Assembly (NCBI GenBank): GCA_021373175.1
Contig: JAJFTE010000021.1
Coordinates: forward strand, 1-35,058
Length of the DNA stretch: 35,058 nt
Direction: 5' to 3'
DNA from: Actinomycetes bacterium
Lineage (GTDB): Bacteria; Actinomycetota; Coriobacteriia; Anaerosomatales; Anaerosomataceae
Shown: piece by piece, positions 3,745 through 31,946 of the stretch
How the letters are laid out: each line of letters starts with the position of its first letter
Position numbering within the stretch: the stretch's first letter is position 1
The notes under the pieces: model-generated
What the model was told of the DNA's origin: nothing
Database searches by the model: none
What the model saw: the letters and a program-made list of their open reading frames with translations, nothing else
Position numbers and translations under genes: made by a program

Positions 3745-6549
3745 CTAGTCCTCGGCGGCGTACTCGTCCTCGACGAATAGCGCACCCTCGGTAATCTGGC
3801 CAACTGAGAAGAGTCTTGACCTCGACCGGTACTCAACCGAGTCCGTTACGTCACCCAACTTTGCTTTGTACTGCAGGAATGAGTCCATCAGCTCACCGAG
3901 ACTCGTTGGCTGGTAGCGCTCGTAGCTTTCTTGATCGACGAAGACGAAGTCGAACACGACGTCGTCCTGGGCCCGATTCACGTCCTCGCACCACAAACGA
4001 AGTCGCTCCATCTTCAGCGGCACGTCAAGATCCTCAAGACCCTTGGTCTCAACGATGACCACTCGCCCATCCGACTTTCGCACGATGAAGTCCGGATAGT
4101 AGTTCGAGATATCGCCATCAGCATTCACGTAGTCCAGCTTGAAGTGCACGGCGAAGTAGTTCTTGGCGAAGGAGACGACATCGGGTGCCTTCTCGAGGAA
4201 TGCGGCGAACTGCAGCTCGAGATGGCTGTCTCCGATGATCCGATTGAAGACGCTCTTCGTCGGAACCACGTAGCCCTGCTCCTTGGCCACGAAGGGCCTC
4301 GTGTTACGGAGCTTGATCGTGTCCCGAATCTCGGCGTCACCCTTGTCGAGGACGGTGAGTGCATTGATGGCGGTCTTGAATGACTCGATGAGCGTCTTCG
4401 TGGCCGCCACCTCTGAGAGATTCCTCAGCGTATTTGCATCCTCGAGGTCAACGTCCCGGTCGAACAGACCCGCCTTGATGAACGTCTTCACCTTGCCGAA
4501 AAGGACGTCATATCCGCTCACGAGTCGCAGCTCTCGCATGATCGTCTGCACGAAGTACCCGACCACACTCCGGTAATCGATGATGCCCGTGGTATCCAGG
4601 ATCGTCGTGTGTGTGACCTCGCCGGTCGTGATGTCCTTGAAGACGATCTCCCGCTGCTCCTCATCAGTGAACTGCCTGTAGGCAACCCTCCGACCAGCAG
4701 GAAGCTCGACACCCAAGTCAGCGAGGTTCTTGTACTCGCGATAAACCCGAGGCGTCAGAAGGGGGAGCTCAATATCCAGAGCGTCCAGATCCTTCTTGGG
4801 ATCCTCGTGATCCACCTCGACGACCAGCGGAGTCTTCGCAGCGGTACCTTCGCCCATCGGCTTGCGTTCCAGCACGACACCTTCTGCTTGGATCTGCTCG
4901 ACGAAGTCCATGAACGCTTCGGTTCCGACAACGCTGACGTATTCCTCCACGCTGTTGCCGACGTACATCTTCCGGAGGCCCCGCCCAAGCGTCTGCTCAG
5001 GCAGGATGTTGCTCTGTGCCGAGTAGGCTCGGAGCCCGACAATCGTCGTCACATTGCGAACGTCCCAGCCCTCTTTGAGCATGAGCACGGAGACGATGAC
5101 CTTGGCCGGCGAATCCATACTGTCGATGTCGTTGGCTTGCTTGCGCAGCATCTCCAGCTCTTCCTTGCCCTTGCCGCTCGCAGCCTCGGAGATCTCCCCG
5201 TTGTTCTTGGTGTGGATAACGAGTACCGAGTCCTCGGCCCCGAAGTCCGCGTAGTGCCCACGCAGGTAGTCGGCCACCTCGTCGCAGTTGCGGGTGTCGT
5301 CCGTCATCACAAAGAGGATTGCCTTCTTGCCCATCTTCTCGTGTTCATCGAATGCCTTGCGCCACTCGATCACACCCAGGTCAAGGTAGTCCGTGTACTT
5401 CTCAGTGAACTTGGCCGATTGACGCTCGACGAGCTTGGCTCGGCTCGGTGCATCGGGCAGAACCGGGTGCTTCACCACATTTTGCGAGATGGCCTCTACC
5501 AGCGGGTAGTCGCACACGGTCTGGACGAAGATTCCGCCGTTGTTGTGCTTGGGCGTGGCCGTCACGTCCACTTGCAGCGAGAGTTCGCTGCCCTTCTGCA
5601 ATAGGCGATTGTGGATGTCCTGGATGGACTTGAACCATGCGAGCCTAGAGTCATGGACGTGGTGCGCCTCGTCGTTGAGCACCATCAGCTCTTCGACGTC
5701 ACGAACAATCATCCCGAGATCGACCTTAGAATCAGTGGTCGCTCCCGTAGGCCGCTTGCCCAGGAAGTAGTCCATCGTGTTCTCGTCCTCCGGAGCCGGC
5801 GGGATGTCGTCACCCGTGTAGACCCGGTGGATGTTAGTCAGGAAGATGTTACCGGTGGGTCTGGTGAGCTGCACCTCGTCCTGAAGATGCAGCGTCAGCT
5901 GGAAATCGCTTCTCCAGTCGCGACCATCATGCCCGTTGTCCGGGAGGATCGGATCCTCATGGAATATCCGAAGGCCCTGGAAGTCACGGTAGACGCGGTC
6001 GAGTACGATAATGTTGGGTGTGATGACGAGGAAGTTCCTCGAGAGCCCCGATTCTTCCTCGTACAGCTTGTGGAAGAAGCTCCATGCGAGCGTGAGTGCA
6101 AGCACCTTCGTCTTGCCGCTACCCGTTGCCATCTTCACCACGAAGCGGCGCCAGTCTTCGTCAAACATGCTCGCCGACACTGAACCAGTACTGTCGAACC
6201 GCATCAGGTCGAACTTGTCCTTCACCCCGACGACGTCGTACAGGTAGACGATCGTCTCAAGCGCCTCACGCTGGGCGAAGAAGTACTGGAACTCACCCAT
6301 CGTATCGTCTGACATGGCCAGGAGGTGTGGGGTACCAAACCACCATCTCAGGAGGCTGCGACTCGTCTCCGTCGCTCCAACATAGCCGCTGTCTCGAAAC
6401 TCCTTCACCTTGCGGCGAAGCTGTGGAACCAACGGGGGCATGAGCTTGTCCATGGTGGTCTCACGCATGGCCTCATCAGCCGGGAACCAACGGATCTCAG
6501 GGTTCAGAATCGCATATGGTGAATCAGGGAAGTCAGGGTGAAGTCCCAC
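3745..6549 (-). CDS. res: Type III restriction enzyme, Res subunit (helicase-nuclease)
   Basis: Res cuts unmodified DNA after ATP-driven movement along it, in a complex with Mod. I start it at GTG 6549, which shares one base with the Mod stop (TAGTG) and has a G-rich site upstream; the frame is open further 5' but inside mod. In this 934-residue protein the superfamily 2 helicase motifs are intact: MATGSGKT (about 140-147), DEAHH (about 293), TATP (about 330), and a late Q..GRGLR motif. The C-terminus keeps a PD-(D/E)XK nuclease: YYPDFIV (Asp about 820) and VVIVETKG (Glu about 834, Lys 836). All key residues are present, so the enzyme is probably active. Length is typical for the family. Confidence 0.93.
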   Translation of the reverse strand: MGLHPDFPDSPYAILNPEIRWFPADEAMRETTMDKLMPPLVPQLRRKVKEFRDSGYVGATETSRSLLRWWFGTPHLLAMSDDTMGEFQYFFAQREALETIVYLYDVVGVKDKFDLMRFDSTGSVSASMFDEDWRRFVVKMATGSGKTKVLALTLAWSFFHKLYEEESGLSRNFLVITPNIIVLDRVYRDFQGLRIFHEDPILPDNGHDGRDWRSDFQLTLHLQDEVQLTRPTGNIFLTNIHRVYTGDDIPPAPEDENTMDYFLGKRPTGATTDSKVDLGMIVRDVEELMVLNDEAHHVHDSRLAWFKSIQDIHNRLLQKGSELSLQVDVTATPKHNNGGIFVQTVCDYPLVEAISQNVVKHPVLPDAPSRAKLVERQSAKFTEKYTDYLDLGVIEWRKAFDEHEKMGKKAILFVMTDDTRNCDEVADYLRGHYADFGAEDSVLVIHTKNNGEISEAASGKGKEELEMLRKQANDIDSMDSPAKVIVSVLMLKEGWDVRNVTTIVGLRAYSAQSNILPEQTLGRGLRKMYVGNSVEEYVSVVGTEAFMDFVEQIQAEGVVLERKPMGEGTAAKTPLVVEVDHEDPKKDLDALDIELPLLTPRVYREYKNLADLGVELPAGRRVAYRQFTDEEQREIVFKDITTGEVTHTTILDTTGIIDYRSVVGYFVQTIMRELRLVSGYDVLFGKVKTFIKAGLFDRDVDLEDANTLRNLSEVAATKTLIESFKTAINALTVLDKGDAEIRDTIKLRNTRPFVAKEQGYVVPTKSVFNRIIGDSHLELQFAAFLEKAPDVVSFAKNYFAVHFKLDYVNADGDISNYYPDFIVRKSDGRVVIVETKGLEDLDVPLKMERLRLWCEDVNRAQDDVVFDFVFVDQESYERYQPTSLGELMDSFLQYKAKLGDVTDSVEYRSRSRLFSVGQITEGALFVEDEYAAED

Positions 6550-8801
6550 TACTTGCCACCCCCTACGTTGACCTCGACTATGGCCATCGTGTCGTTGCCG
6601 AAGATGTCGACCACCTTGACTGCGACCTTCCTCCTGCCGGGCAAGCACTCATGGAACACGCTCTTAAGTTCGAGCGATCTGTCGCGCTTCGTCCGGAAGC
6701 TCTGCCACTCGTTCTCGAAGATGTAGTCGCCGGTCCACTTCTCTTCCCACTCACCCGTATCAACGTCCTGCACACGGATGATCTCGGACTTGTTCTCGAA
6801 GTCGAAATCGACGGCCCAGTAGTCGATCCAGTCCGTCCATTCCTTGGTAAGTACCTCCCGGGTGACAATGCCGTCCTTGTCCTTACTCACCTTGATGATC
6901 TGCCCGCGCTCGACGACAACCTTGCTGCCTTTGTTCTTCACGGTCTCCTCGGCGCTTGCGACCGAGTCCTGCGAGTAGAACACTGAGAAGTCCGTCAGTT
7001 CGACTGACACCGTGTTTCCCACGATGTACGGCTTCACCTCGATGTAGGCCACATCGTGGAAGACGACTTGGTTCTTCTCGATAGCCCGCTTGTCGAAGAC
7101 GTCGGCAGGGATGTACTTCGGGGAGAGATCGATGCCCCTGCTCCGTGCATCATCCAAGACGTTGGGGAATAGTCCCATCTCGAACTCGAAGCCGAGGATG
7201 TCAGCTTTCGTGATGTGCTGTTTGCGGCACTCGAGGATGATCTCCTCGACGAACAAACGGGTCACGGGCATGTTGATGGGGCCCACCGCCACCATCCTCC
7301 CGGACTTCCTCCCATTGAAAGCGCTTGATCCAGTCGTAGGTTCCGCCTTGTAGGCACGGAGAATCAGGTCAGTGAACTCACGCTCACGAGCTTCAACCTG
7401 AATGCGTTGCTCTTCCTCTCTTAGGTTCGGGTTGATTCCCACGTAGTGCTGGCGCTCATAGCGACCGAGGTTCAGGATCTCAAATGCTCTGTAGTCCTTT
7501 CCATCCGCTTTCAGCTGCCTTTGCACTCCGATAATTCGCTTCCTTGTTGTGTGGACAGCGAACTTGCCAAGATCACTGACTATCCATTTTCTCCCTAGTC
7601 GCTCAGCGCTCGCAGCGAGGGTTCCCGAGCCACAGAAGAAGTCAGCCACCAAGTCACCCTCGTTAGATGACGACTCGATTATTCGGTCAAGAAGGGCTTG
7701 AGGCTTCTGCGTTGGATAGTCGAGCCTCTCCGCTGCCTGTGAGTTGACCGGGAAGACGTCCGTCCAGAGAGTCTGCAGTGGAACTCCTGGCGTCTCGTCA
7801 AGATAGCGCTTGAGCCGGATGCCCCCTGCCCTGGTGAAATGCAACTTGCCTTCGGCATCGAGGCGCTCCATCGTCGTCAGCGGACACCGCCACAGGGACT
7901 TGATGCCCTTGTACTCGTAGGTATATCCGCCTCCAGAAAGCCCCTTTGCGGTGATGTCTGCGTCAGTCCACAGACGACCGTCCGGATCCTCGTTGCGGAA
8001 TCGCATTTTGTACTCGTCCGAATGCAGGCAGTACTGCTGGTTCCAAGTGCGCTCAAGAGACTTCGAATAGTAAAAGATAGAATCGACGTTGACCCCGTAG
8101 TGGCCAGGATCGCTGTGGGCGCTCGTCCTCTGCCAGATGATTTCGTTCTGGTAGTTCGACGGCCCAAACACCTCGTCGAGAATGATCCTGAGGTGACTGT
8201 TGAGCCTCCAGTCACAGTGTAGATATATGCTCCCATCTGATGCGAGCAAGTCCCGCATTAGAAACAGGCGCTCGTAGATCATGGCCAGGAAAGAGTCGGC
8301 GCCCTTACCCCATGTGTCTCGGTACGCAATCTCCTCGAGAATACCTGGCTGCTTCGTAAGCTTGTCCTCACCGATCTCGATGTCCATAGAGAAGTCAGCG
8401 CCGACATCAAATGGCGGGTCGATGTAGACCAGTTTCAGTCCACCCTGTGCCTCAATCTCTTGACGCAAGGGCCCGCTATTCAACGATGAAAGAATTAGCT
8501 TGTTGTCGCCCCAGATGAGTTTGTTCGTCCAACCCTTGAGTTGGCGACCACGATCGTCCAACGAGAACAAGTCCAACTGAAGTAAGGCATCCTCTTGCTT
8601 CTCTGCCCTCGGCTCATCCACTTGCTCGATGGTCTGGAAAGGAAGTACGACGTTGGTGACATCGCCCGTCTTCCCATTCCAAACAAGCTCGACCTCTCGC
8701 TTGTCCTCGAACAGAAGGAACCTGTACTTGTCCGGCAAAGGCTTATCGGCCTCGAGGAAACGAATGACGTCTTGCTGCTCTTGATCAGTCAATCGAGCCA
8801 T
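6549..8801 (-). CDS. mod: Type III DNA methyltransferase, Mod subunit
   Basis: This is an adenine-N6 type methyltransferase that sets the sequence specificity of the type III system. The start ATG 8801 follows GGAGGA at good spacing. The 750-residue protein has the beta-class order of motifs: DPPF at 128-131 (catalytic motif IV) precedes FFCGSGT at 388-394 (AdoMet-binding motif I), with a roughly 250-residue region between them that should contain the target recognition domain. DWRLNSHLR and LDYPTQKPQ are further signature pieces. The C-terminal third is likely the Res-interacting part. The stop codon overlaps the res start by one base, so translation is probably coupled. A TATGAT-like -10 sequence lies upstream near 8853, with no convincing -35. 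Confidence 0.93.
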   Translation of the reverse strand: MARLTDQEQQDVIRFLEADKPLPDKYRFLLFEDKREVELVWNGKTGDVTNVVLPFQTIEQVDEPRAEKQEDALLQLDLFSLDDRGRQLKGWTNKLIWGDNKLILSSLNSGPLRQEIEAQGGLKLVYIDPPFDVGADFSMDIEIGEDKLTKQPGILEEIAYRDTWGKGADSFLAMIYERLFLMRDLLASDGSIYLHCDWRLNSHLRIILDEVFGPSNYQNEIIWQRTSAHSDPGHYGVNVDSIFYYSKSLERTWNQQYCLHSDEYKMRFRNEDPDGRLWTDADITAKGLSGGGYTYEYKGIKSLWRCPLTTMERLDAEGKLHFTRAGGIRLKRYLDETPGVPLQTLWTDVFPVNSQAAERLDYPTQKPQALLDRIIESSSNEGDLVADFFCGSGTLAASAERLGRKWIVSDLGKFAVHTTRKRIIGVQRQLKADGKDYRAFEILNLGRYERQHYVGINPNLREEEQRIQVEAREREFTDLILRAYKAEPTTGSSAFNGRKSGRMVAVGPINMPVTRLFVEEIILECRKQHITKADILGFEFEMGLFPNVLDDARSRGIDLSPKYIPADVFDKRAIEKNQVVFHDVAYIEVKPYIVGNTVSVELTDFSVFYSQDSVASAEETVKNKGSKVVVERGQIIKVSKDKDGIVTREVLTKEWTDWIDYWAVDFDFENKSEIIRVQDVDTGEWEEKWTGDYIFENEWQSFRTKRDRSLELKSVFHECLPGRRKVAVKVVDIFGNDTMAIVEVNVGGGK

Positions 8802-15442: not shown

Positions 15443-16492
15443 CTACAGACCCGCGAGGCGCAGCATCTCCGCGGCAACATCCTGGACGGCGAGAACCACG
15501 CTCGCCGCGTGAAGCTCTATCGCCGCCCTCGGCATGCCGAAGACCGTGGAGGTCTCCTCGTCTTGCGCGATAGTCGCCGCTCCTGAATCGTGCATCGCCT
15601 TGAGGCCGACGGCACCGTCGGCGCCCATACCGGTGAGGAGCACGCCGATGCCTCGTGCACGATGCGTGCGCGCGACCGACGCGAAGAGCGTATCCGCCGA
15701 AGGGATGTAGAGCTGACCCTTCTCGGGCATCGAGAACATCAGCCGGGTGCCGTCCACCGTGAGGTTCATCCCTGTCGGTGCGAAATAGGCGACACCGCGC
15801 TCGAGGGTACCGCCATCAGTCGCCGCGCGCACCGAGATCGCACATGCCTCGTTGAGCCAGCTCACCAGACCCGGGATGAAGCCCTCGGCGATATGCTGCG
15901 CGATGACGATGGGGAGCGTGAAATCGCTCGGAAGCGGCTTGAGAACGCTCATGAGCGCCGACGGACCGCCGGTCGAAGAACCGATCGCCACGATGCTCCG
16001 GCCTTCCGGTACCGGCGTGACAGCGTGACGATCGCGTCGCGCCGGCACCGTCCGCCTTCCCCGGATGTGCGTGATCACCTTCACCCTCGCGAGGATCTTC
16101 ACCTTGCGAATAACGTCGTGCCCGATACGCTCAAGCTCCGCCCAGTCGCGCGGCTCGGGCTTCTTGATGACCTCGAGCGCGCCGGCCGAAAGCGCATCGA
16201 AGGCCAGTCCCATCCCCTCGCCATGCACCGAGGACGAGACCACCAGTATCGGGGTTGGTGTGAATGCCATGATGCGTTCGGTCGCTTCAAGACCGTCCAT
16301 GCGGGGCATGTGGATGTCCATGGTCACGAGGTCCGGCCGGAGCCGAGCGACCATGTCAACGCCCTCCTGGCCGTCGGCTGCTTGACCGACCACCTCGATC
16401 GAGGAGTCGGTCGCAAGAATCTGCGAGAGCATCTCCCTGGCCACGAGCGAGTCATCGACGATGACGACTCTTATGGGCGCTGAAGACGCCAC
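15443..16492 (-). CDS. cheB: CheB, receptor methylesterase with response-regulator domain
   Basis: CheB removes methyl groups from chemoreceptor glutamates when phosphorylated, giving adaptation. The 349-residue protein has an N-terminal receiver domain (about 7-125) with DD13-14, phospho-acceptor Asp59 and Lys111, and a C-terminal methylesterase domain from about 165. The catalytic triad is visible: Ser172 or Ser173 in IGSSTGGPS, His200 in AQHIAEGF, and Asp292 in GMGADGA. It is the last gene of the chemosensory operon, 33 bases after cheA. All catalytic residues are intact, so it should work against the methylatable receptor encoded in the same operon. Confidence 0.96.
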   Translation of the reverse strand: MASSAPIRVVIVDDSLVAREMLSQILATDSSIEVVGQAADGQEGVDMVARLRPDLVTMDIHMPRMDGLEATERIMAFTPTPILVVSSSVHGEGMGLAFDALSAGALEVIKKPEPRDWAELERIGHDVIRKVKILARVKVITHIRGRRTVPARRDRHAVTPVPEGRSIVAIGSSTGGPSALMSVLKPLPSDFTLPIVIAQHIAEGFIPGLVSWLNEACAISVRAATDGGTLERGVAYFAPTGMNLTVDGTRLMFSMPEKGQLYIPSADTLFASVARTHRARGIGVLLTGMGADGAVGLKAMHDSGAATIAQDEETSTVFGMPRAAIELHAASVVLAVQDVAAEMLRLAGL

Positions 16493-16525: not shown

Positions 16526-18802
16526 CTATCTGATCAGCCGCTCAACGGTGTCTATCAGCGTGTCCTGGTTGAACACGGACTTAGTGATGTACGCATCCGC
16601 CCCCGCCTGGATGCCCTCAGCCTTCTCCTCTTCACGCTCGAGTGAGGTGACGATGACGACAGGGATCGTCTTGAGCAGCCCATCGGCACGGATCGCGCGC
16701 GTGAGGTCGAAACCGCTCATGTTCGGCATCTGCACGTCGGTCACCACGGCGTGGACCTTCAGCCCTTCCTGAAGCTTCGCCAGGCCGAGCGCGCCATCGG
16801 TAGCGGTCTCCACGTCGTAGCCTGCGGCTTCGAAGATCGACCGCTCCAGTTCCCGGGTGGTGAACGAGTCTTCGCAGATGAGGATGCGCTTCGGGCCCGT
16901 TTCGGCGGCGGCCGCCGCATCGGGCCGGACGCGCATACCCGTGATCTGACGAGCGTGATACATGAGATCGGGCACGTTGAGGATGGGGACGACCTCGCCA
17001 GCGCCGAGGATCGTCACGCCGGCGACGTTATCGACGCGCACCAGATGCGTGCCGAGCGTCTTGATGACGATCTGCTGCTCGCCAACGAACGCGTTCACGA
17101 GAAACCCAATCCGGTGTCCCGAGAAGCCGACGGTGACCACCGGAAGCTTGCGCCCGATGTTCTCGGCGGCTTCGAGTCCCAGCACGTCACGCAGATGAAC
17201 GATCGGAATGGTCCGACGCTGCCGCCTGATCACCTCTCGGCCCTCGACCTTGATGATCTCCGAGGGGTCGACGCGCAGCGTCTCTTCGATCGATGCTGTC
17301 GGGATGGCGAACGTCTGTCCACTCACGCTCACGAGCAGCGCGCGGATGATGGCGAGTGTGAGCGGGATCGTCAGCCTGAACGTCGTTCCCTGTCCCGGCA
17401 CCGAGGTGACATCGAGCGATCCTTTGAGCTTCTCGACGATGAACTCGCGAACCACGTCCATGCCAACACCGCGCCCGGAGATCTCGGTGATGATCGCGCT
17501 CGTCGAGAACCCCGCCTCGAAGATGAGGTACGTGGCTTCGCGATCGGACATCGCCTTCGCCTCGGTTTGCGAGACGTATCCCTTACGTACCGCAGCCGCG
17601 CGCACCTTCTCGGGGTCGATGCCCGCGCCATCGTCGGAGATCTCGATGACGATGTGATCGCCTTCTTGCCGGGCGGCAAGAAGGATCTTGCCCTTAGCCG
17701 GCTTGCCGGCGGCCAAGCGGTCGGGAAGGCTCTCAATGCCGTGATCAACGGCGTTGCGCATGATGTGGATGAGCGGGTCGTTGATCTCCTCGAGCACCTT
17801 CTTGTCGAGTTCGGTGTCACCGCCCTCGATTTGGAGCTCAACCTCCTTATTGAACTGGTGGGCCAGTTCGCGAACCGAGCGAGGAAAGCTGTTGAAGACG
17901 GTCGATACCGGCAGCATCCGGAGCGCCATGCTGTGCTCCTGCAGGTCCGCAACGACGGTGGAGGCGCGAGACGCATCCTCTGCATACGTCTTGACGATGC
18001 CCGACAGGCGCTTACGTTGATCGTTGAGCAGTTCATCGAGCAGGTTGAGATCCTCGTTGAACGCGAGACCCTCTCGGCTCTGAAGGTTGACTGCGGTCGT
18101 ACGCACGCGGCTCCACAACTGCTGGGTCTCGTTCATGCGCGCCTGCAGACTCCGCATGTCCCGAGCGTGTTGGTCGTCCTTGATCCGGGCGATCACGACC
18201 TCGCTTACGAGGTTCAGCAGCCGGTCGACCTGCTCGGTACGAATACGCACGGTTTGCTGGACGCGCGTCTGCAGCGTTTGCTCTTCATGCACCGCCTTCT
18301 TGGGCGACGGCTTCTTCGCGCTGGCGCCCGGCCGTTCGCGGTTGCGAGTGTCATCCTTTTCCGCGATCGGGGCTCGCTCCGGACCGCCGGGTGCCGATGC
18401 CGTCTCGCCAGACGCTGCGCCGGCGGCCTCGCCAAGCCGGCCGAGCAGCCCGGGGATGTCGACTTCGCCGCTCACGTCTTTGCCGGCACTCTCCGAAAGG
18501 AAGACGATGCTGTCAAGCGCCTCGAAGAACACCTCCGACATGTCGGGGACATAGCGAATCTCGCCGTCGCGCACCTTCACCATGATGTCTTCGAGCCGGT
18601 GCGCGATGTCGGAGATCTCGATGAGACCGACCATCCTCGAGGAGCCTTTGAGGGTGTGCGCGTCCCGGAGCATCTGGTCGATGAGCTCCCGGTTCTGCGG
18701 GTCGGCTTCGAGCGTGATGACGCCCTCGTTCAGGCGCTGGAGATACTCCGTCGCCTCCTCCTGAAACTTGCCTATGAACGCCGAGCGGTCGAACTCGACC
18801 AT
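16526..18802 (-). CDS. cheA: CheA histidine kinase with C-terminal receiver (CheA-REC hybrid)
   Basis: A 758-residue signalling kinase. Domains in order: Hpt (about 5-105, phospho-His49 in AHTLKGSS); a charged linker with no obvious CheY-binding P2 domain; dimerisation (about 185-300); HATPase with the N box LIHIMRNAVDHG (344-355), DDGAGIDP (390) and GRGVGMD (443); CheW-like (about 475-615); and a receiver domain (about 638-758) with Asp689 in TDVQMP and Lys about 741. The fused receiver and missing P2 are typical of type IV pilus and other alternative chemosensory kinases rather than flagellar CheA. It starts at ATG 18802 behind AAAGGA, 30 bases after the receptor gene. Confidence 0.95.
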   Translation of the reverse strand: MVEFDRSAFIGKFQEEATEYLQRLNEGVITLEADPQNRELIDQMLRDAHTLKGSSRMVGLIEISDIAHRLEDIMVKVRDGEIRYVPDMSEVFFEALDSIVFLSESAGKDVSGEVDIPGLLGRLGEAAGAASGETASAPGGPERAPIAEKDDTRNRERPGASAKKPSPKKAVHEEQTLQTRVQQTVRIRTEQVDRLLNLVSEVVIARIKDDQHARDMRSLQARMNETQQLWSRVRTTAVNLQSREGLAFNEDLNLLDELLNDQRKRLSGIVKTYAEDASRASTVVADLQEHSMALRMLPVSTVFNSFPRSVRELAHQFNKEVELQIEGGDTELDKKVLEEINDPLIHIMRNAVDHGIESLPDRLAAGKPAKGKILLAARQEGDHIVIEISDDGAGIDPEKVRAAAVRKGYVSQTEAKAMSDREATYLIFEAGFSTSAIITEISGRGVGMDVVREFIVEKLKGSLDVTSVPGQGTTFRLTIPLTLAIIRALLVSVSGQTFAIPTASIEETLRVDPSEIIKVEGREVIRRQRRTIPIVHLRDVLGLEAAENIGRKLPVVTVGFSGHRIGFLVNAFVGEQQIVIKTLGTHLVRVDNVAGVTILGAGEVVPILNVPDLMYHARQITGMRVRPDAAAAAETGPKRILICEDSFTTRELERSIFEAAGYDVETATDGALGLAKLQEGLKVHAVVTDVQMPNMSGFDLTRAIRADGLLKTIPVVIVTSLEREEEKAEGIQAGADAYITKSVFNQDTLIDTVERLIR

Positions 18803-18832
18803 TTCGGTCCTTTCGCGAGCATGGGTGGCAGG

Positions 18833-20059
18833 CTAGCCGACGATGCGGAACGCCGCGCCCACATTGCTCGATTCGCGGGCGATCGCGGCGAGCTGCTCTG
18901 CCGCCGACGCCACCTGCTTGCTGCCCGCCGCGGTCTGCTGCGCGACGGACGCGACCTCTCGCATCGCTTTGACCACCTGATCGGTGGCGCTCTTCTGCTG
19001 CTGGGTCGCCGCGGATATCTCTTTGGCGGCCGAGGTCGTCTCCTCTATCGTGTCGAGGATGTGCTCAAGGCTCTCCCCGGTCACGTTTGCAAGTTCGACG
19101 CCACCCAGGACCTGCTTGAGCTCCTGTTCCGTAGAGATGACGAGGTCGTTCGCCGCGGTCTGGATCTCGGTCATGATCGTCTCGATCTCACCCGTGGAGT
19201 CCACCACGGATTCCGCGAGCTTCCTGATCTCGACGGCGACGACCGAAAAGCCCTTGCCGGCGTCACCGGCCCGCGCGGCTTCGATAGCGGCGTTGAGCGC
19301 AAGGATCTTCGTCTGATTGGCGATGTTGTTGATGATGGCGAGAACCTGGGCGATCTGCTGGCTGCGCTCGCCAAGCTGCAGGATCTTGTTCGCCGACGCC
19401 TGCGCCCGCGCCTTGATCTGCTCCATCGCGTCAAGCGTGTTCGCGACCGCCTGCTGGCCGCTCTCGGCATTGCCAAGCGACGCCTCGGCCAGGTGCACGA
19501 CCTGGTTCGCGTTCTCCGCGATCTGGCGGTAGGTGGAGGCGAGCTCCTCCATGGTGGCGGTGGTCTCGCTGATCGACGCTGCCTGCTCGGCGGCACCGGA
19601 CGCCTGCTGCTCGGTGGCCGAGAGGATCTCGGAGGACGCTCCGGCAAGCCGATTCGACGATTCCTGCGTTTGCGTGATGAGGTACACGATCAGGTCGAGC
19701 ATCTGGTTGTACGAACGGGCAAGCACACCGAACTCATCCTCGGACTTGACGTCCACCTTGTGACCGATCTCGCCTTCGCACGCCGCCTGCACGCTCGTGA
19801 CGACGTGGCCGAGCGGAGCGGTGAAGCGCTTTCCAACCAGGAGGTACACGTAGAGAAAGACCGCACCGGTGGCAAGGAACACGCCGAGTACCACGGCCAG
19901 GTCGGTGAGAAGCTCGGGGGAATTGGCCAGCTCGTCGCCGAACATCAGCCAGGCGACCCCGAGCTGCACCAGGTTCAGTGCCACGACCAGCCCGAGGTTC
20001 ACGAGCGAGTACTTCCAGAGGAACGAGCCGCGGATCGTCTTGATCAGTCCCTTGAGCAT
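18833..20059 (-). CDS. Methyl-accepting chemotaxis protein with almost no external sensor
   Basis: I start this 408-residue receptor at ATG 20059 ([11 protein letters not shown]) because AGGGG lies upstream; an in-frame extension to 20119 overlaps the end of cheW. Two membrane segments (about 15-40 and 52-75) flank an outside loop of only about 15 residues. A HAMP domain (about 76-125) follows, then methylation helices rich in Glu/Gln/Ala and the conserved hairpin tip: [18 protein letters not shown], then [13 protein letters not shown]. The lack of a ligand domain suggests it senses membrane state, an internal signal or a partner protein. There is no C-terminal CheR-tethering pentapeptide. 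It lies between cheW and cheA. Confidence 0.95.
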
Positions 20060-20081
20060 GCGATAATCCCCTCTCGCGCCA

Positions 20082-20636
20082 TCAGGCGTTGTCACCGATC
20101 GGTTCAAGCACTCGGTCAAGATTCACGATGCCGATCAGCCGACCATCCCTGTACACCGAGCCGCTGATGAATTCGACTTGGCTTCTATCGAGGGTGACAA
20201 GCGGTGGCTCGAGTGCCTCGCGAGGTACGTCGAGGATGTCGCCGATCTCATCGACGACGATCGCGCTCACACAGCGATCAGTCTGCGCGATGATCGCCGA
20301 GGGCAGTTCTCGCCCGGCCCAAGTGCCATCGGACGCGATCCGCATCAAAGCTGCGATATCGGTGACCGAGACGATCTCACCTCGCACGTTCGTGACGCCC
20401 TGGATGAAGTCTGGAACGCGGGGAATCGGCGTGAGAACGAAGTCGTTAACGATCTCTCGAACGCCCGAGATGGGTACGGCATACCACTCCTCGCCCAGCC
20501 GGAACAGCAGCAGTTCGAGCAGCTCGGCGGCAGTGTCGACCGCTTCCACCTGGGCGAGCGACTCCGCCCGCCTGCGCAAGATCTCGAGCGACTGCTGCGC
20601 CTTGGACTCATCGATGGCCGGCGCGTCGCCGTTCAC
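20082..20636 (-). CDS. cheW: CheW coupling protein (copy 1)
   Basis: A scaffold protein linking receptor and CheA. The GTG start at 20636 overlaps the stop of the preceding cheW (GTGA), so the two are translationally coupled. The 184-residue protein has a helical N-terminal extension of about 40 residues, then the CheW beta-barrel with [41 protein letters not shown] and a final [13 protein letters not shown]. The NVRG motif that contacts receptor and kinase is intact. The two neighbouring CheW proteins are clearly divergent from each other, which suggests different partners. Confidence 0.93.
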
Positions 20637-21199
20637 CGTGCTCCCTCCTCAACGAACAAGTCGACGCTCGCCAGCGCTGCGTCCGGCACAAGCCGGTCGG
20701 GATCGAGCACCACGACGAGTCCGGCATCGACCTTACAGATGCCGAGCATCCGCTCCGCGAGCGCGTACAGGTTCGAAGGCGGTTGCATGCAACCCTCTGG
20801 CAGGTCAATCACGTCTTCGACGGCATCGACCAGGAGCGCTACGAGCCGATGGTGCGTATGAAGGAAGATCATCGGCGTGTCGAGTGTATAGTCGCGTACC
20901 GGCATGCCGACAAGCGCGCGCACGTCAATGGCCGGAACAACGCCACCGCGCAAATCAATCATCCCCACAAGCGCCGCCGAGCCACCCGGCACGGGAGTGA
21001 ACTCGACGATCTGCTGGATCTCCTGAACGCTGGCGATAGGAAGCGCATACCGTTGTTCGTCGAGCCGGAACACGACGGCCTGGGCAACCTTCGTTTCTGC
21101 CTCCGCTTCGCCGGTAGCCACCCCATCGCGCTCGTCGTCGCGCACCTGGGCTGCGACGGGTGCCGTCTCATCTGTCTTCTTCTTGCGAGGCACATTCAC
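20633..21199 (-). CDS. cheW: CheW-like coupling protein (copy 2)
   Basis: The second CheW in the operon, 188 residues, starts 10 bases after the stop of the degenerate ATPase gene. A charged, probably disordered N-terminal tail of about 38 residues leads into the barrel: AVVFRLDEQRYALPIASVQEI, FTPVPGGSAALVGMIDLRGGV and DVIDLPEGCM. The receptor-contact motif is IDLRGG where copy 1 has TNVRGE. Its position next to the GspE-like gene raises the possibility that it couples the kinase to that protein rather than to the receptor; this is inference from order alone. Confidence 0.92.
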   Translation of the reverse strand: MNVPRKKKTDETAPVAAQVRDDERDGVATGEAEAETKVAQAVVFRLDEQRYALPIASVQEIQQIVEFTPVPGGSAALVGMIDLRGGVVPAIDVRALVGMPVRDYTLDTPMIFLHTHHRLVALLVDAVEDVIDLPEGCMQPPSNLYALAERMLGICKVDAGLVVVLDPDRLVPDAALASVDLFVEEGAR

Positions 21200-21209
21200 C
21201 TTCCGCTGG

Positions 21210-23099
21210 TCAGGAGAACCTCAGGACTCTATCGAGCTCATCTGCGCTCACAGCGCCGGAGCGCATGCGAGCCAGGCCTGACGCCGCCAGGGGCCGCATC
21301 CCCGCGGCATCGGCAGCAGCCGCGATCTCGGACGCCGACGCGCCGGTGGCGACTTTCGCGCGAACCGGCTCGGTGAACGGCAGCACCTCAAAGATGCCGA
21401 CCGCACCACGAAACCCGGTCTTCCCGCAATTCGGACAGCCGGTCCCGGTTCTGTTCACGTCATCTGCCGTGACCCCGGGTATACGCACCATCGCGCCGCT
21501 CGGCGTCTCAACGGTGCAGTTCGGGCAATTCATGCGAACGAGCCGCTGTCCGACCCCGACGGTCAGCGCCGATGCCAGGCTGTGCGGCTCCACGCCAAGG
21601 TCAAGCATCCGCCGCACGCCGGAAGCGATATCCGCCGCGGGGAACGTCGCGATGACGAGCTTGCCCAGACCGGCCGCCTCAACCGCCAGATGAACGTCCT
21701 CGACGGTACGAAGGCCATCGATGGCCACCACATCAGTGTCCTGCTTCAGGCCGGCAGCCAGATAATTCGCTGCGGGAACCGGCGAGGCGGTGTTGATCAT
21801 GACCTGCGCCACGGCTGGAATCTCGTACTCCACGGAGTGCTCCACCGAGTAGACCGTCTTCCCCGTCGAAGCCGCGTGGGCGAGCAGCGCATAGTAGGTG
21901 GTACTGGCGCCGGCGGCCACCGGCGCACAAACGAGCAGAATGCCGCGACCGCGCTCGACCATGGCGTGCAGCGCACGGACCTCGGCCTCAGACATGCCAA
22001 GTTCCGCAAGCCCGCTCGGCTCCGGATTGTGCGACGCAAGCGACACCACAAGACGCTGACCGGCGATCGTCGGCACTGCCGAAACGGTCACCACCAGGTC
22101 CTTGTCGCCGACTCTCGCGCGTACGCGCGAGAGCGCGGGGCGAGAAGCCTGCACGCCGGACATCTTCGCGAAGCTCTTCAGCCCATCGACCAGCGCACCC
22201 TGCAGCGAAAGCGGCGCGCTCGCGACCTTCTCGAGCCCGCCTTTCACCCTGTATACCAGGAAGAAGTCGTCCTTGTACGGAAGCAGGTGGATCATGCTCG
22301 CTTCGCGTGCGACCGCATCCTCGAGGATCTCGGTCACGAGCACCGCGATTCTGCGGCTGTCGGCGACCGCAAGAACGTCCAGGTCGATCGCGGCGCGGCC
22401 GAGTCCCGGAGCCGCCATCCCCGCCATCTGCTCGATGGTCTCGGCTGGCAGCGGCACGGGCGTCGGAATCGACTCGAACTCCGCGACCGGCGCCACGGGG
22501 ACGGCCATCGTCGGCTCGAAGGGCGCGGCCTGCTCCTCGAAGAAGTCGGACGCGGCGAATCCGGGCTCGCCCGCATCCACTTCGGCTACCGGCGGAGGGG
22601 GCGGCATCTCATCGCCACGGGCGACGAGTGGCGGCGCCGCGGGCGCGGATTCTGCCGCATCGCCGTAATAGGTCGTGATCGCGCTTTCGACCGCAGCGGC
22701 GTCCGCCAGCACGGGCTCAAGTTCCATGTCCAGATCAGCAGCAAGTGCGTCAAGCATGAAGACGTCCATAGCGTCGCCGATAGCGACGGTGAGCATGCCC
22801 TCGATGTCGAAGAGCGGCAGCATGCGACGCGAACGAGCGACGCTTGCAGGCACCAGCGCGAGCGCGGCATCCTCCGGCGCGTAGCTCGACAGATCCACGC
22901 TCGGCACGCCCATCTCGTGCTCGAGGACCGACGCGACATCCGCCGCCGAGACGAGTCCTCGCTCGGCCAGCACGGTGCCCGGACCGACCCCACGCGTGGC
23001 CGCCTGCTCGGTCACACTGGCCAGCTGCTCGACGGTGAGCAGCCCTGCTCCCACAAGGCTGTCGAGCACACGGCTCGAAAGAGTGTTCGTGTCGCTCAT
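21210..23099 (-). CDS. Degenerate GspE/PilB-like protein with MshEN-type N-domain (predicted pseudo-ATPase)
   Basis: This 629-residue protein has the architecture of a type II secretion/type IV pilus extension ATPase. An N-terminal MshEN-like domain (about 8-146; LPLFDIEGMLTVAIGDAMDV at 94-113) is of the kind that binds c-di-GMP in MshE. A Pro-rich linker (150-220) follows, then the N2 and core domains and a zinc ribbon with CPNC at 525-528 and 555-558. The catalytic motifs are altered: the Walker A equivalent reads PVAAGASTT (393-401, Lys replaced by Ala398); the Asp box is VEHSVE (419-424); the Walker B equivalent is VVAIDGLRT (457-465, catalytic Glu replaced by Gly462); and the His box is ATFPAAD. 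ATP hydrolysis is unlikely. It sits six bases after the response-regulator gene, in a chemosensory operon. Confidence 0.88.
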   Translation of the reverse strand: MSDTNTLSSRVLDSLVGAGLLTVEQLASVTEQAATRGVGPGTVLAERGLVSAADVASVLEHEMGVPSVDLSSYAPEDAALALVPASVARSRRMLPLFDIEGMLTVAIGDAMDVFMLDALAADLDMELEPVLADAAAVESAITTYYGDAAESAPAAPPLVARGDEMPPPPPVAEVDAGEPGFAASDFFEEQAAPFEPTMAVPVAPVAEFESIPTPVPLPAETIEQMAGMAAPGLGRAAIDLDVLAVADSRRIAVLVTEILEDAVAREASMIHLLPYKDDFFLVYRVKGGLEKVASAPLSLQGALVDGLKSFAKMSGVQASRPALSRVRARVGDKDLVVTVSAVPTIAGQRLVVSLASHNPEPSGLAELGMSEAEVRALHAMVERGRGILLVCAPVAAGASTTYYALLAHAASTGKTVYSVEHSVEYEIPAVAQVMINTASPVPAANYLAAGLKQDTDVVAIDGLRTVEDVHLAVEAAGLGKLVIATFPAADIASGVRRMLDLGVEPHSLASALTVGVGQRLVRMNCPNCTVETPSGAMVRIPGVTADDVNRTGTGCPNCGKTGFRGAVGIFEVLPFTEPVRAKVATGASASEIAAAADAAGMRPLAASGLARMRSGAVSADELDRVLRFS

Positions 23100-23105
23100 G
23101 CCAGC

Positions 23106-23483
23106 CTAGCCCTGCACCTTGGCGAGCTCCTCGGCGACCGCCGAGAGCAGCGTATCGGGTTCGACAGGCTTGGTGAGATACTGGTTGGCGCCGGTCCGGA
23201 TCCCGGTTGCCATCGACTGTTCCTCGGTCTTGGCCGTGAGCATGATGATGGGGATGCTCTTGTAGTTCTGGTCGAACTTGAGCAGACGACAGACGCGGTA
23301 GCCGTCAAGTTTGGGCAGCATGACATCAAGCAGGATCAAGTCAGGCTTCTCGTTGCGAGCGGTCTCAAGCGCCTGCGCGCCATCCGCCGCGGTGATAACG
23401 TCGTATCCGCCGGCCTCAAGGATCGCTTTGATCATCTCAAGGATCGTCGGACTGTCATCAACCGCGAGTATACGTGCGGCCAT
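23106..23483 (-). CDS. Single-domain response regulator (CheY/PilH-like)
   Basis: A stand-alone receiver of 125 residues, read from ATG 23483 (MAARILAVDD); the frame is open a little further 5', but GGAG-rich sequence precedes this ATG. It has the acidic pocket DD9-10, phospho-acceptor Asp53 in LLLDVMLPK, Thr in MLTAKT and Lys in YLTKPVEP. The tail after the receiver is short and there is no output domain, so it should act by binding a target. DVMLPKLDGY and the downstream sequence resemble PilH/PilG-type regulators of twitching systems. CheA-REC is its probable phosphodonor, and the adjacent GspE-like protein is a plausible target. Confidence 0.93.
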   Translation of the reverse strand: MAARILAVDDSPTILEMIKAILEAGGYDVITAADGAQALETARNEKPDLILLDVMLPKLDGYRVCRLLKFDQNYKSIPIIMLTAKTEEQSMATGIRTGANQYLTKPVEPDTLLSAVAEELAKVQG

Positions 23484-23558
23484 TCTCCGCTCCCTCCTCG
23501 GCATCGCTCTGTGGTGATGTATCGCCCCGTGCGACCCGGAGCTTTAGGGTCGGCTCCC

Positions 23559-25067
23559 TCACGCGGCACCCATCGCCTTCCGACACTCTAACAGACTGCG
23601 CTCACACGTCTTGGCGAGCAGATCTGCTTTGAAACCGCCAAGGAACTCGGTCCAGGAACCCTCGGGACTCTTATAGAGCGCTCGCAGTGCGTTCTCGTAC
23701 TCGCGGGCGGCGGCTTCCCACTTGCGTTGGGACTTGTAGATGTTGGCGAGGTTCAGATGCGCAAGCGCGAAATCCGCGTCGATGTAGATGGTCTTCTTGA
23801 GCTCGCTGATCGCGCGAACCGGATCTCCCTGTCGCTGGTAGATGATGCCGAGGATGTAACGCGCCACGGGCAAGAGCGGATTGATGGCAAGCGCCCGGTG
23901 ACACGCTTCAAGTGCCTGGACGTAGTCGCCGGAGTCAGCATGGACATACGCCGAGAGAAGATGCGCCTCAGCGTTGCCCGGATCAGCCGCGAGGATGCGT
24001 TCGACCAGTTCGAGCACCCGCTCGGGATGCCCCTGCTCGAGACACTGCCGCGCCTGCACGATGAGCGTGTCTTGGTCTTCGGCCTCGGCGGGTTTCAGCG
24101 TCTCGGTGCGCGCCGCGGCGTGAGCACGCGCGGGACGCGTCGATCCCCTCTTGGCACTGGGAAGGATCGGCGCGACAGCAGGGATCTGCGGCTTCGGTCG
24201 AGCAACCGCGAACATGCGCTTCGTGCGCGGCTTGCGATACAGAAACACACCGCCCGTCTCAACCACCTCGAACACGTCGCTGATTGACGATAGGGTCTCT
24301 GAGTGTCCGATGAACAGGTAGCCGCCCTCGTTCAGGCTGTTGTAGAAGTTGGCGACCACACGCTTGGTGGACTCGAGCTTGAAGTAGATCGTGACATTGC
24401 GGCAGAAGATGATGTCCCAGTTCCCCATGAGCGACAGCGGATACGGTTCTTTGATGAGGTTGTGATAGCCAAAGTCGACGATTCCGCGCACGTGTGGCGC
24501 CACTGAGTAGGCGTCACCGCTGGGTTCGAAGTGCCTCGCAAGGACTTCTTTGGGCACGTTGAGCATCGCGCGCTTGCCGTAGACGCCCTTCTTCGCCATC
24601 GAGAGCGCCTTGGTCGAGACATCGGTGCCGAGAATCTGCGGCTTCCAGCCGAGGCCTTGGATGCCGGCGTCGACGCACGACATCCCAAGCGAGTACGGCT
24701 CCTCACCAGTGGAACAGCCCGCCGACCAGATCCTGATGGTCCGGTTGGACTGGGGCTTGGCGGCCATGATCTCAGGTAAGACCTTGCTCCCGAGCGCATC
24801 GAACTGCTGCGGGAACCGGAAGAAGCTCGTCTCGTTGATGGTGATCAGGTTGATGAGCTCGTTGAACTCGCGCTCGTCTTGGACGAGCAGGCGGTAGTAG
24901 TCGTCGAAGGAGGGGTACCCGAGCCGCGTCGCGCGTGTCACAAGCGAGATGCGCAGCGAGTCGAGCTTGCCCTCCTCGAAGAAGATGCCCGAGAAGGAAT
25001 GGATGAAGTCCCGGAAGCGGGCGAACTCCTCGAGCGTCAGATCCTTTGCCAGGCCCTCACCGTTCAC
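23559..25067 (-). CDS. cheR: CheR receptor methyltransferase with C-terminal TPR repeats
   Basis: CheR methylates receptor glutamates with AdoMet. The GTG start at 25067 follows TGAGGA, 11 bases after the DUF4388 stop. In the 502-residue protein, the N-terminal helical domain (about 8-80) precedes INETSFFR (77-84), the AdoMet motif SAGCSTGEEPYSL (115-127), an LGTDVS segment and the FCRNVTIYF motif, all typical of CheR. After a basic linker (about 285-320) comes a helical TPR region (about 325-480) with repeated AxxxLxxAxxxxP patterns, including LACEHRAL-like and FALAHLNLAN units. TPR-CheR fusions occur in non-flagellar systems, where the repeats bring the enzyme to partners; the receptor here lacks the tethering pentapeptide. 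Confidence 0.94.
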   Translation of the reverse strand: MNGEGLAKDLTLEEFARFRDFIHSFSGIFFEEGKLDSLRISLVTRATRLGYPSFDDYYRLLVQDEREFNELINLITINETSFFRFPQQFDALGSKVLPEIMAAKPQSNRTIRIWSAGCSTGEEPYSLGMSCVDAGIQGLGWKPQILGTDVSTKALSMAKKGVYGKRAMLNVPKEVLARHFEPSGDAYSVAPHVRGIVDFGYHNLIKEPYPLSLMGNWDIIFCRNVTIYFKLESTKRVVANFYNSLNEGGYLFIGHSETLSSISDVFEVVETGGVFLYRKPRTKRMFAVARPKPQIPAVAPILPSAKRGSTRPARAHAAARTETLKPAEAEDQDTLIVQARQCLEQGHPERVLELVERILAADPGNAEAHLLSAYVHADSGDYVQALEACHRALAINPLLPVARYILGIIYQRQGDPVRAISELKKTIYIDADFALAHLNLANIYKSQRKWEAAAREYENALRALYKSPEGSWTEFLGGFKADLLAKTCERSLLECRKAMGAA

Positions 25068-25078
25068 CGGTCACGTCC

Positions 25079-25825
25079 TCAGTGGACGACGCCCTCGGCG
25101 TCGTTCCCGATCTTCTCGATGAGGCCGGCCGAATACATGCCGTACAGGATCCGAGCCGTATCAAAGTCGTTGTAACCGGTGACGTCGACGAGCTCTCTGA
25201 CTGAGCGTCCGCCGTGCAGATAGCACAGCAACATCCATTCCTTCGGTTTGAGGTGAATCTCCATCGATTTATCGCCCGGTGCCGAGGCCATGACGAACTG
25301 CGTCTCAAGCGACGGTATCTTCTGGCGGATACGACTCCACAGCTCAAGACGCCGGGACGACTCCATGATGATGTTCTCCACGGAAACCGAGATCCCGATG
25401 TCCTCTTCCTCGCAGGTCTCGTCGCCTTCAAAGCGCAGCTGACCTTCTTCCCAGCGGAACAGGTCGAACAGCGTGTCGTTGATCTGCTCCTGAATGAAGG
25501 TCTCGAGCACCTTCGCGTCCAGATAGCCTTCATCCACGAGGATCTGCCCGAGCCTGCGGTCGGCCTTTTCCTTCTTCTGGATCTTCTGGAGGCCGAGCGC
25601 CTGGCGCAGCTGCTTCTCGGAGATCACACTCGCCTTCACGATGCGCCTGCCGAGCGACTCTCGGTGCCAGTTGCTCGACGCGAAGAAGACACGCCCCTTC
25701 TTGAAGCAGACCTTGCCCTGCGCGTCGGGGTGTTCGAGATACAGCGTCCCGGTCTTTCGGCCGGACGCGAGCAGGCGGAACATGTCCGCGAGTGAGAAGT
25801 CCTTGAGGTTACCCTCGAGGGCCAA
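25079..25825 (-). CDS. DUF4388 (PATAN) domain protein
   Basis: The likely start is TTG 25825 (LALEGNLKDF), which has GGGGAGG at ideal spacing; the frame upstream gives unlikely Arg-rich sequence. The 248-residue product begins with the DUF4388/PATAN signature: NLKDFSLADMFRLLASGRKTG, YLEH and GKVCFKKGRVFFA. A second half follows, with LGQILVDEGYLDAKVLE and LFRWEEGQLRFE, and then a C-terminal winged-helix-like segment (YLHGGRSVRELVDVTGY). PATAN domains occur with chemosensory and gliding or twitching regulation in several phyla and are thought to mediate protein contacts. It is the first gene of the nine-gene chemosensory operon. A TACGAT sequence near 25924-25929 is a weak promoter candidate. 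Confidence 0.85.
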   Translation of the reverse strand: MALEGNLKDFSLADMFRLLASGRKTGTLYLEHPDAQGKVCFKKGRVFFASSNWHRESLGRRIVKASVISEKQLRQALGLQKIQKKEKADRRLGQILVDEGYLDAKVLETFIQEQINDTLFDLFRWEEGQLRFEGDETCEEEDIGISVSVENIIMESSRRLELWSRIRQKIPSLETQFVMASAPGDKSMEIHLKPKEWMLLCYLHGGRSVRELVDVTGYNDFDTARILYGMYSAGLIEKIGNDAEGVVH

Positions 25826-31596: not shown

Positions 31597-31946
31597 TGGT
31601 GGAGGCGCGGAGAATCGAACTCCGGTCCACAATAGACCCCCGGGTAGTATCTCCAGGCTCAGACACCGATTATCGTCAGTGCGAGCGACACCCGGTGACC
31701 CGCGTGCCCGCACCCTGGCCGTTCATTCTCGCGCTAACGGCATACAGCCTACGTCCGTCGCGCATGTCCCCTGAATGACGTCGGGACCGGTGACGGGGAC
31801 GCTCACCGGGCGACGTCGCTACTTATTTAAGCAGCGAGAGCGTAGTTATTGTCGACGCTTGAGCGTCTTTACCCCTGTTTAACGAGGCGAGGAGACCTCG
31901 GCCTGCTGCTACCCTCGAACCTATCATGTCGAATCCAGTCGCCCCC
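31597..31946 (-). ncRNA. ssrA: Transfer-messenger RNA (tmRNA)
   Basis: A 350-base one-piece tmRNA. The 5' end GGGGGCG (31946 inward) pairs with CGCCTCC at the 3' end to make a tRNA-Ala-like acceptor with the G3-T70 pair, followed by discriminator A and encoded CCA at 31597. GGTTCGA and CGACTGG near the 5' end and GGAGTTCGATTCTCC near the 3' end are the expected arms. The tag frame reads DNNYALAA (codons at 31853-31830) with stop TAA at 31829-31827. The codon before the Asp is GTC rather than the usual Ala codon, so the resume codon is uncertain. SmpB is encoded 100 bases upstream on the same strand. Confidence 0.95.

Follow-up and report, generated by a model that had tools for sequence, protein, structure and literature searches.

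A conserved PilB-fold pseudo-ATPase in the chemosensory operon of bacteria lacking a flagellar switch

In M. xanthus the PilB Walker A mutant K327A assembles no pili, yet it retains signalling activity upstream of the Dif MCP-CheW-CheA complex (PMC5544727). ATPase-deficient PilB in this organism has its place in the pathway after the pilus and before Dif (PMC5544727, PMC4319316), and PilB is proposed to signal in its apo form (PMC5544727). Light-sensing systems of Synechocystis have as their output PATAN response regulators, which interact with PilB1 (PMC12288463, PMC7690835). Inactive Walker mutants of PilT still give retraction through PilU (reviewed in PMC11656802). The locus analysed here carries a PilB-like gene, termed X, inside a chemosensory operon, and the protein that it encodes lacks the catalytic residues of a pilus motor.

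Fold and remodelled nucleotide site of X

The window (the whole 35,058-nucleotide stretch of DNA analysed) carries X on the minus strand at 21210-23099 (open reading frame and profile matches). The 629 codons are uninterrupted and encode an MshEN-type N-domain (residues ~10-150), a linker, and an N2D plus RecA-like core (245-629) with a zinc tetracysteine (C525/C528/C555/C558). X belongs to the T2SSE superfamily, matching PF00437 with 208.8 bits (1.2e-61; gathering threshold 24.9) across the domain (X residues 247-624, profile positions 4-370 of 370), and it matches MshEN PF05157 above the cut-off (1.2e-13). Its closest solved relative is Geobacter PilB (1.6e-75), and it falls below the curated cut-off of the PilB equivalog model TIGR02538 (289.4 versus 675.65 bits). 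The AlphaFold model of X (mean pLDDT 57, shallow alignment) is adequate solely as support for a PilB/GspE fold; Foldseek with this low-confidence model gave PilF, PilB and GspE as top matches.

Alignment to the canonical PilB of the same genome and to solved structures locates four lost catalytic residues. The Walker A motif GPTGSGKS/T has become APVAAGAS, with Lys replaced by Ala398 (residues 390-399, VCAPVAAGAS; 21903-21932, minus strand, computed from the reading frame). The Asp box ED reads EH421. Walker B GE is now DG, with Gly462 in place of Glu and a new invariant Asp461 (residues 454-463, DTDVVAIDGL; 21711-21740, minus strand, also computed), and in the His box LHTND reads FPAAD, His giving way to Pro487. 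The initial annotation had described an uninterrupted frame in which all four nucleotide motifs were changed together and both CPNC pairs were retained; each of these points is borne out, and its residue numbers Ala398 and Gly462 are correct. The N2D segment, absent from its list of changes, is also altered (RRxPQDGR to ASRPALSR), and Arg 319 and Asp 323, conserved in canonical PilB, are gone. A substitute catalytic Lys or Glu near the lost positions was sought in the alignments and rejected, and no canonical Walker A Lys or Walker B Glu occurs elsewhere in the protein.

The loss is universal among the orthologues of X examined. Walker A Lys, Asp-box Asp, Walker B Glu and His-box His, the residues expected of a PilB/GspE enzyme, are each found in 0 of 51 aligned orthologues, against retention of each in at least 95% of 37 canonical PilB proteins from the same phylum. 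The Walker A Lys position is occupied by Arg (25 orthologues), Ala (15), Ser (7), Gly (3) or Cys (1), the Asp-box Asp mostly by Arg, Gln or His, the Walker B Glu by Gly, Ser, Pro, Ala or Thr, and the His-box His mostly by Pro, Ser or Ala. Around these sites P393, V394, G397, S418-V419-E420, E426, D454-T455-D456, A459 and D461 are invariant. X keeps 46 of the 101 positions conserved in the canonical set, among them the four zinc cysteines of the structural family (each in at least 90% of orthologues). A further 46 positions are specific to X and at least 98% conserved among its orthologues, which argues that the site was remodelled and did not simply drift.

Estimates of dN/dS for X lie at 0.07-0.11 for all but one of eight pairs, the exception being 0.25, and are similar to cheA in most pairs. 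Given this purifying selection and the universal loss, chance or artefact is an unlikely explanation; X has been maintained, and its site has been remodelled. No internal stop occurs among the X matches listed except in one genome (G023), where the gene is split over two frames (L047:8644-10829) by either an assembly error or a real frameshift.

Operon, distribution and relatives

X was originally described as lying within a cheR-cheY-X-cheW-cheW-mcp-cheA-cheB operon, and the analysis agrees, extending the order with a DUF4388 gene ahead of cheR and murI behind. All of the following are on the minus strand. The DUF4388 protein (25079-25825, start codon inferred from orthologues), which carries an MshE-type c-di-GMP motif and whose domain we take to be PATAN, is the most conserved in the operon (94% to the nearest relative). 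Profile matches identify a CheR methyltransferase with TPR repeats (23559-25067), CheW 1 (20633-21199), CheW 2 (20082-20636), a CheA with Hpt, kinase, CheW-like and C-terminal receiver domains (16526-18802) and a CheB methylesterase (15443-16492). A CheY-like single receiver domain (23106-23504, reading frame and profile match) is encoded 6 bp upstream of X. The MCP (18833-20119) has two transmembrane helices separated by a very short loop, a HAMP domain and a signalling domain. Of its orthologues, 39 of the 40 scored have two transmembrane helices joined by 17 residues or fewer, leaving no extracytoplasmic ligand domain; the remaining one was scored with a single transmembrane segment.

Some further features were noted. 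In three relatives cheR is seemingly in two pieces (L050, L056, L085). A 1138-residue open reading frame antisense to cheA and mcp (16751-20167, plus strand) is probably a high-GC artefact and not a gene. Elsewhere in the window are a tmRNA gene (31597-31946, minus strand; tag peptide VDNNYALAA) and adjoining ResIII-type and N6/N4 DNA methylase genes (3745-8801, minus strand) that resemble a type III restriction-modification pair.

A first search of 61 genomes found X orthologues above 450 bits in 54, with canonical PilB at about 200 bits or below. A second, with a profile built from 17 orthologues, found X in 58 of 69 genomes of the host order and, at E <= 1e-75, in none of the other sampled orders of the class. 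The named members are metagenome-assembled genomes labelled mostly Actinobacteria or Coriobacteriia. Every locus of sufficient length has the order DUF4388-cheR-cheY-X-cheW-cheW-mcp-cheA-cheB, often followed by murI, and X always lies between cheY and cheW; random placement is thus rejected. The matching cheA is present in 56 of the 69 genomes, and X accompanies it in every case: both genes occur in 56, neither in 11, X alone in two and cheA alone in none (Fisher 4e-11, a value that overstates independence, since the 11 genomes lacking X include incomplete ones and five of one genus). The two genomes with X alone are one that is 70% complete and one in which a short contig ends within the operon. 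Canonical PilB is kept in 9 of the 11 genomes that lack X, which indicates that the occurrence of X tracks the chemosensory system rather than the pilus motor; every X-bearing genome has one to four canonical copies. FliM was found in 0 of the 69 genomes by a search that was positive in flagellated control species, so the operon system cannot act on the usual flagellar switch and is non-flagellar. With its CheA/CheW/MCP/CheY set, pilus motors in the same genomes and no flagellar switch, it has the composition of a type IV pilus-type chemosensory system and may control the pilus itself. Orthologues, synteny, dN/dS and the FliM search together support X as a conserved, selected pseudo-ATPase of a chemosensory system in bacteria that have type IV pili.

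Three PilB homologues encoded directly after cheY were found in another class of the phylum. One (G461) has all canonical motifs. The other two (G524 and G471) share the gene order of the window; in their proteins the Lys of Walker A and the Glu of Walker B are still present, but the His is gone and so are parts of the Asp box. The cheY-linked homologues thus form a graded series from canonical (G461) through half-decayed (G471, G524) to the fully decayed X of the host order. A tree built without the motif columns, with E. coli HofB and GspE as the outgroup, places X, G524 and G471 together (99/98) and adds G461 to them with support of 95/86. X, G524 and G471 are long branches. When G524 and G471 are omitted the support for G461 falls to 80/18; when X is omitted the other two still group (99/99). 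Because the G461 join weakens in this way, the order of decay is suggested and not proven. A phylum-wide search with a mixed alignment (A2) was swamped by canonical PilB. In a further genome (G304, L159:1-10270) che genes are again close to pilB: a different che cluster is located some 3 kb ahead of a canonical copy.

Candidate roles for X

An intact protein with a lost ATP site, a fixed place in a chemosensory cluster and a host order without flagella together indicate that X is probably a signalling part and not a motor. We propose, with a probability of roughly 0.6, that X is a dedicated PilB-derived pseudo-motor which, having no ATPase cycle, serves as a nucleotide-insensitive adaptor linking this chemosensory system to the base of the type IV pilus. 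The observations behind this proposal are the universal site loss, the kept fold and zinc ribbon, purifying selection, the strict place beside cheY, the joint absence of X and cheA from genomes that mostly retain PilB, the lack of FliM and the graded relatives. A canonical PilB captured beside cheY would be the likely origin of X, freed from motor work by the one to four other PilB copies. X would still dock on pilus-base partners or on canonical PilB, and also on a chemosensory protein (the neighbouring CheY, the PATAN/DUF4388 protein or both), and would in this way couple array and pilus. Arg at the Walker A Lys position in about half of the orthologues, the kept Ser399 and the invariant Asp461 count against complete insensitivity to nucleotide, and X may bind ATP.

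As judged from sequence, the adaptor could act in either direction. An output from CheY or the PATAN protein to the pilus is plausible, though short of an even chance, and is somewhat likelier than an input because cheY-pilB adjacency is common to X and its canonical relative; other arrangements would be less probable than either. The input form, in which X would be a locked mimic of apo-PilB and would inform the MCP/CheW/CheA array of how the pilus base stands, is possible but doubtful. X would then provide a signal to a receptor that cannot sense the outside, the MCP having no extracytoplasmic ligand domain, and two cheW genes come straight after X; ATPase-deficient PilB of M. xanthus, with the pilus upstream of it and Dif downstream, is a precedent (PMC5544727, PMC4319316). 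However, cheY also directly precedes X, and in G461 it is cheY, not cheW, that links pilB with canonical motifs to the chemosensory genes.

X could instead poison or assist the motor ring, co-assembling with or stacking on canonical PilB hexamers and altering their activity much as PilU does with PilT. The kept fold and zinc ribbon, a canonical PilB in every X genome and the retraction that inactive PilT Walker mutants still support via PilU (PMC11656802) agree with this. On the other side, X keeps only 46 of the 101 conserved PilB positions, so its contacts with other subunits may have diverged, some genomes have PilB and no X, and the structural model of X is poor. We regard a ring partner as unlikely.

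The initial annotation had cast X as a signal receiver that could connect chemosensing to the pilus, perhaps by joining or capping the motor ring on a cue from c-di-GMP or the adjacent CheY. The conserved pseudo-ATPase in a chemosensory operon agrees with the first part; a place in or on the PilB ring and a contact with CheY would be conceivable, and c-di-GMP as its signal finds no support. The MshEN-like N-domain is retained as a domain (PF05157 above cut-off), but its c-di-GMP contact residues are lost. The binding motif consists of two 24-residue stretches, RLGxx(h)(h)xxG(h)(h)xxxxLxxxLxxQ (PMC5013675), and its relaxed form fits 0 of 51 X orthologues, neither half surviving. RLG has become RVL (Gly to Leu), the first Gln is Ala in 43 of 50 orthologues and the second is Glu in 41 of the 50, and the second Arg is mostly Ser, Thr, His or Gly. 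Against the NCBI c-di-GMP_motif model NF053729 the X of the window scores 20.1, below the cut-off of 38, although 11 of 17 orthologues match it weakly. A c-di-GMP receptor function for X is therefore rejected as very improbable. The neighbouring DUF4388 (PATAN) protein is the better candidate: it passes NF053729 narrowly (39.4), the model matches 14 of 14 homologues tested, and 43 of 46 have one relaxed half-motif, though only one half is intact. Its structural model is unusable (pLDDT 40). A DUF4388 paralogue lies just after canonical pilB elsewhere in the same genome (C139, L002:3169-4155), so PATAN and PilB are paired again, here next to the gene of a pilus motor.

That X is a decaying duplicate without function, as the loss of every catalytic residue might suggest, is extremely improbable given dN/dS of about 0.1, newly invariant residues, a fixed gene position and, G023 excepted, no internal stop among the matches listed, and a pseudogene is ruled out by selection and conservation.

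Returning to the adaptor, its history may tentatively be read as the capture of a pilus motor ATPase by a chemosensory operon, followed by stepwise loss of catalysis until it became an obligatory non-catalytic signalling component, with the intact G461 and half-decayed G524 and G471 as living intermediates. If true, this capture and decay would be a natural counterpart of the apo-PilB signalling state of M. xanthus, with a motor fold as messenger between pilus and array, and evolution would have split signalling from motor function within the PilB fold. The graded relatives allow the residue needs of the two roles to be asked. Communication from chemosensory arrays to the type IV pilus is unsettled beyond a few models, and a dedicated pseudo-PilB fixed in this operon, in an order that has no flagella, offers a clean genetic handle. 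For annotation there is a warning, since the matches of X to PilB/GspE models could lead it to be counted wrongly among pilus motors.

Comparison with described systems

The fold family and signalling by PilB are known. In the open literature searched, we found no description of a degenerate PilB in a chemosensory operon, nor of a separate conserved non-catalytic PilB fixed in one. Relative to PilB/GspE (PF00437, TIGR02538), X has the same fold, MshEN-type N-domain and zinc tetracysteine and is collinear over 245-625; it differs in lacking the four catalytic residues and part of RRxPQDGR, and in the placement of its gene in a chemosensory operon. The cyanobacterial regulators PixE, PixG and LsiR, which act on PilB1, direct a chemosensory-type output onto PilB, and the X operon too has a PATAN protein (PMC12288463, PMC7690835). 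Here, in contrast, the PATAN protein is unfused to a receiver and has an MshE-type motif, and the operon has its own pseudo-PilB. The paralogous pilus ATPases PilT and PilU are both catalytic in their native form, and one of the two, when mutated, works with no hydrolysis of its own; X, unlike them, has lost its catalytic residues. In the M. xanthus PilB-Dif system a PilB without ATP hydrolysis signals via MCP-CheW-CheA, as X may do, and K327A is a Lys-to-Ala change like Ala398. M. xanthus uses a single PilB as motor and as signal, with a dead form that was made by mutation in the laboratory, whereas X is a separate, naturally dead gene inside the che operon.
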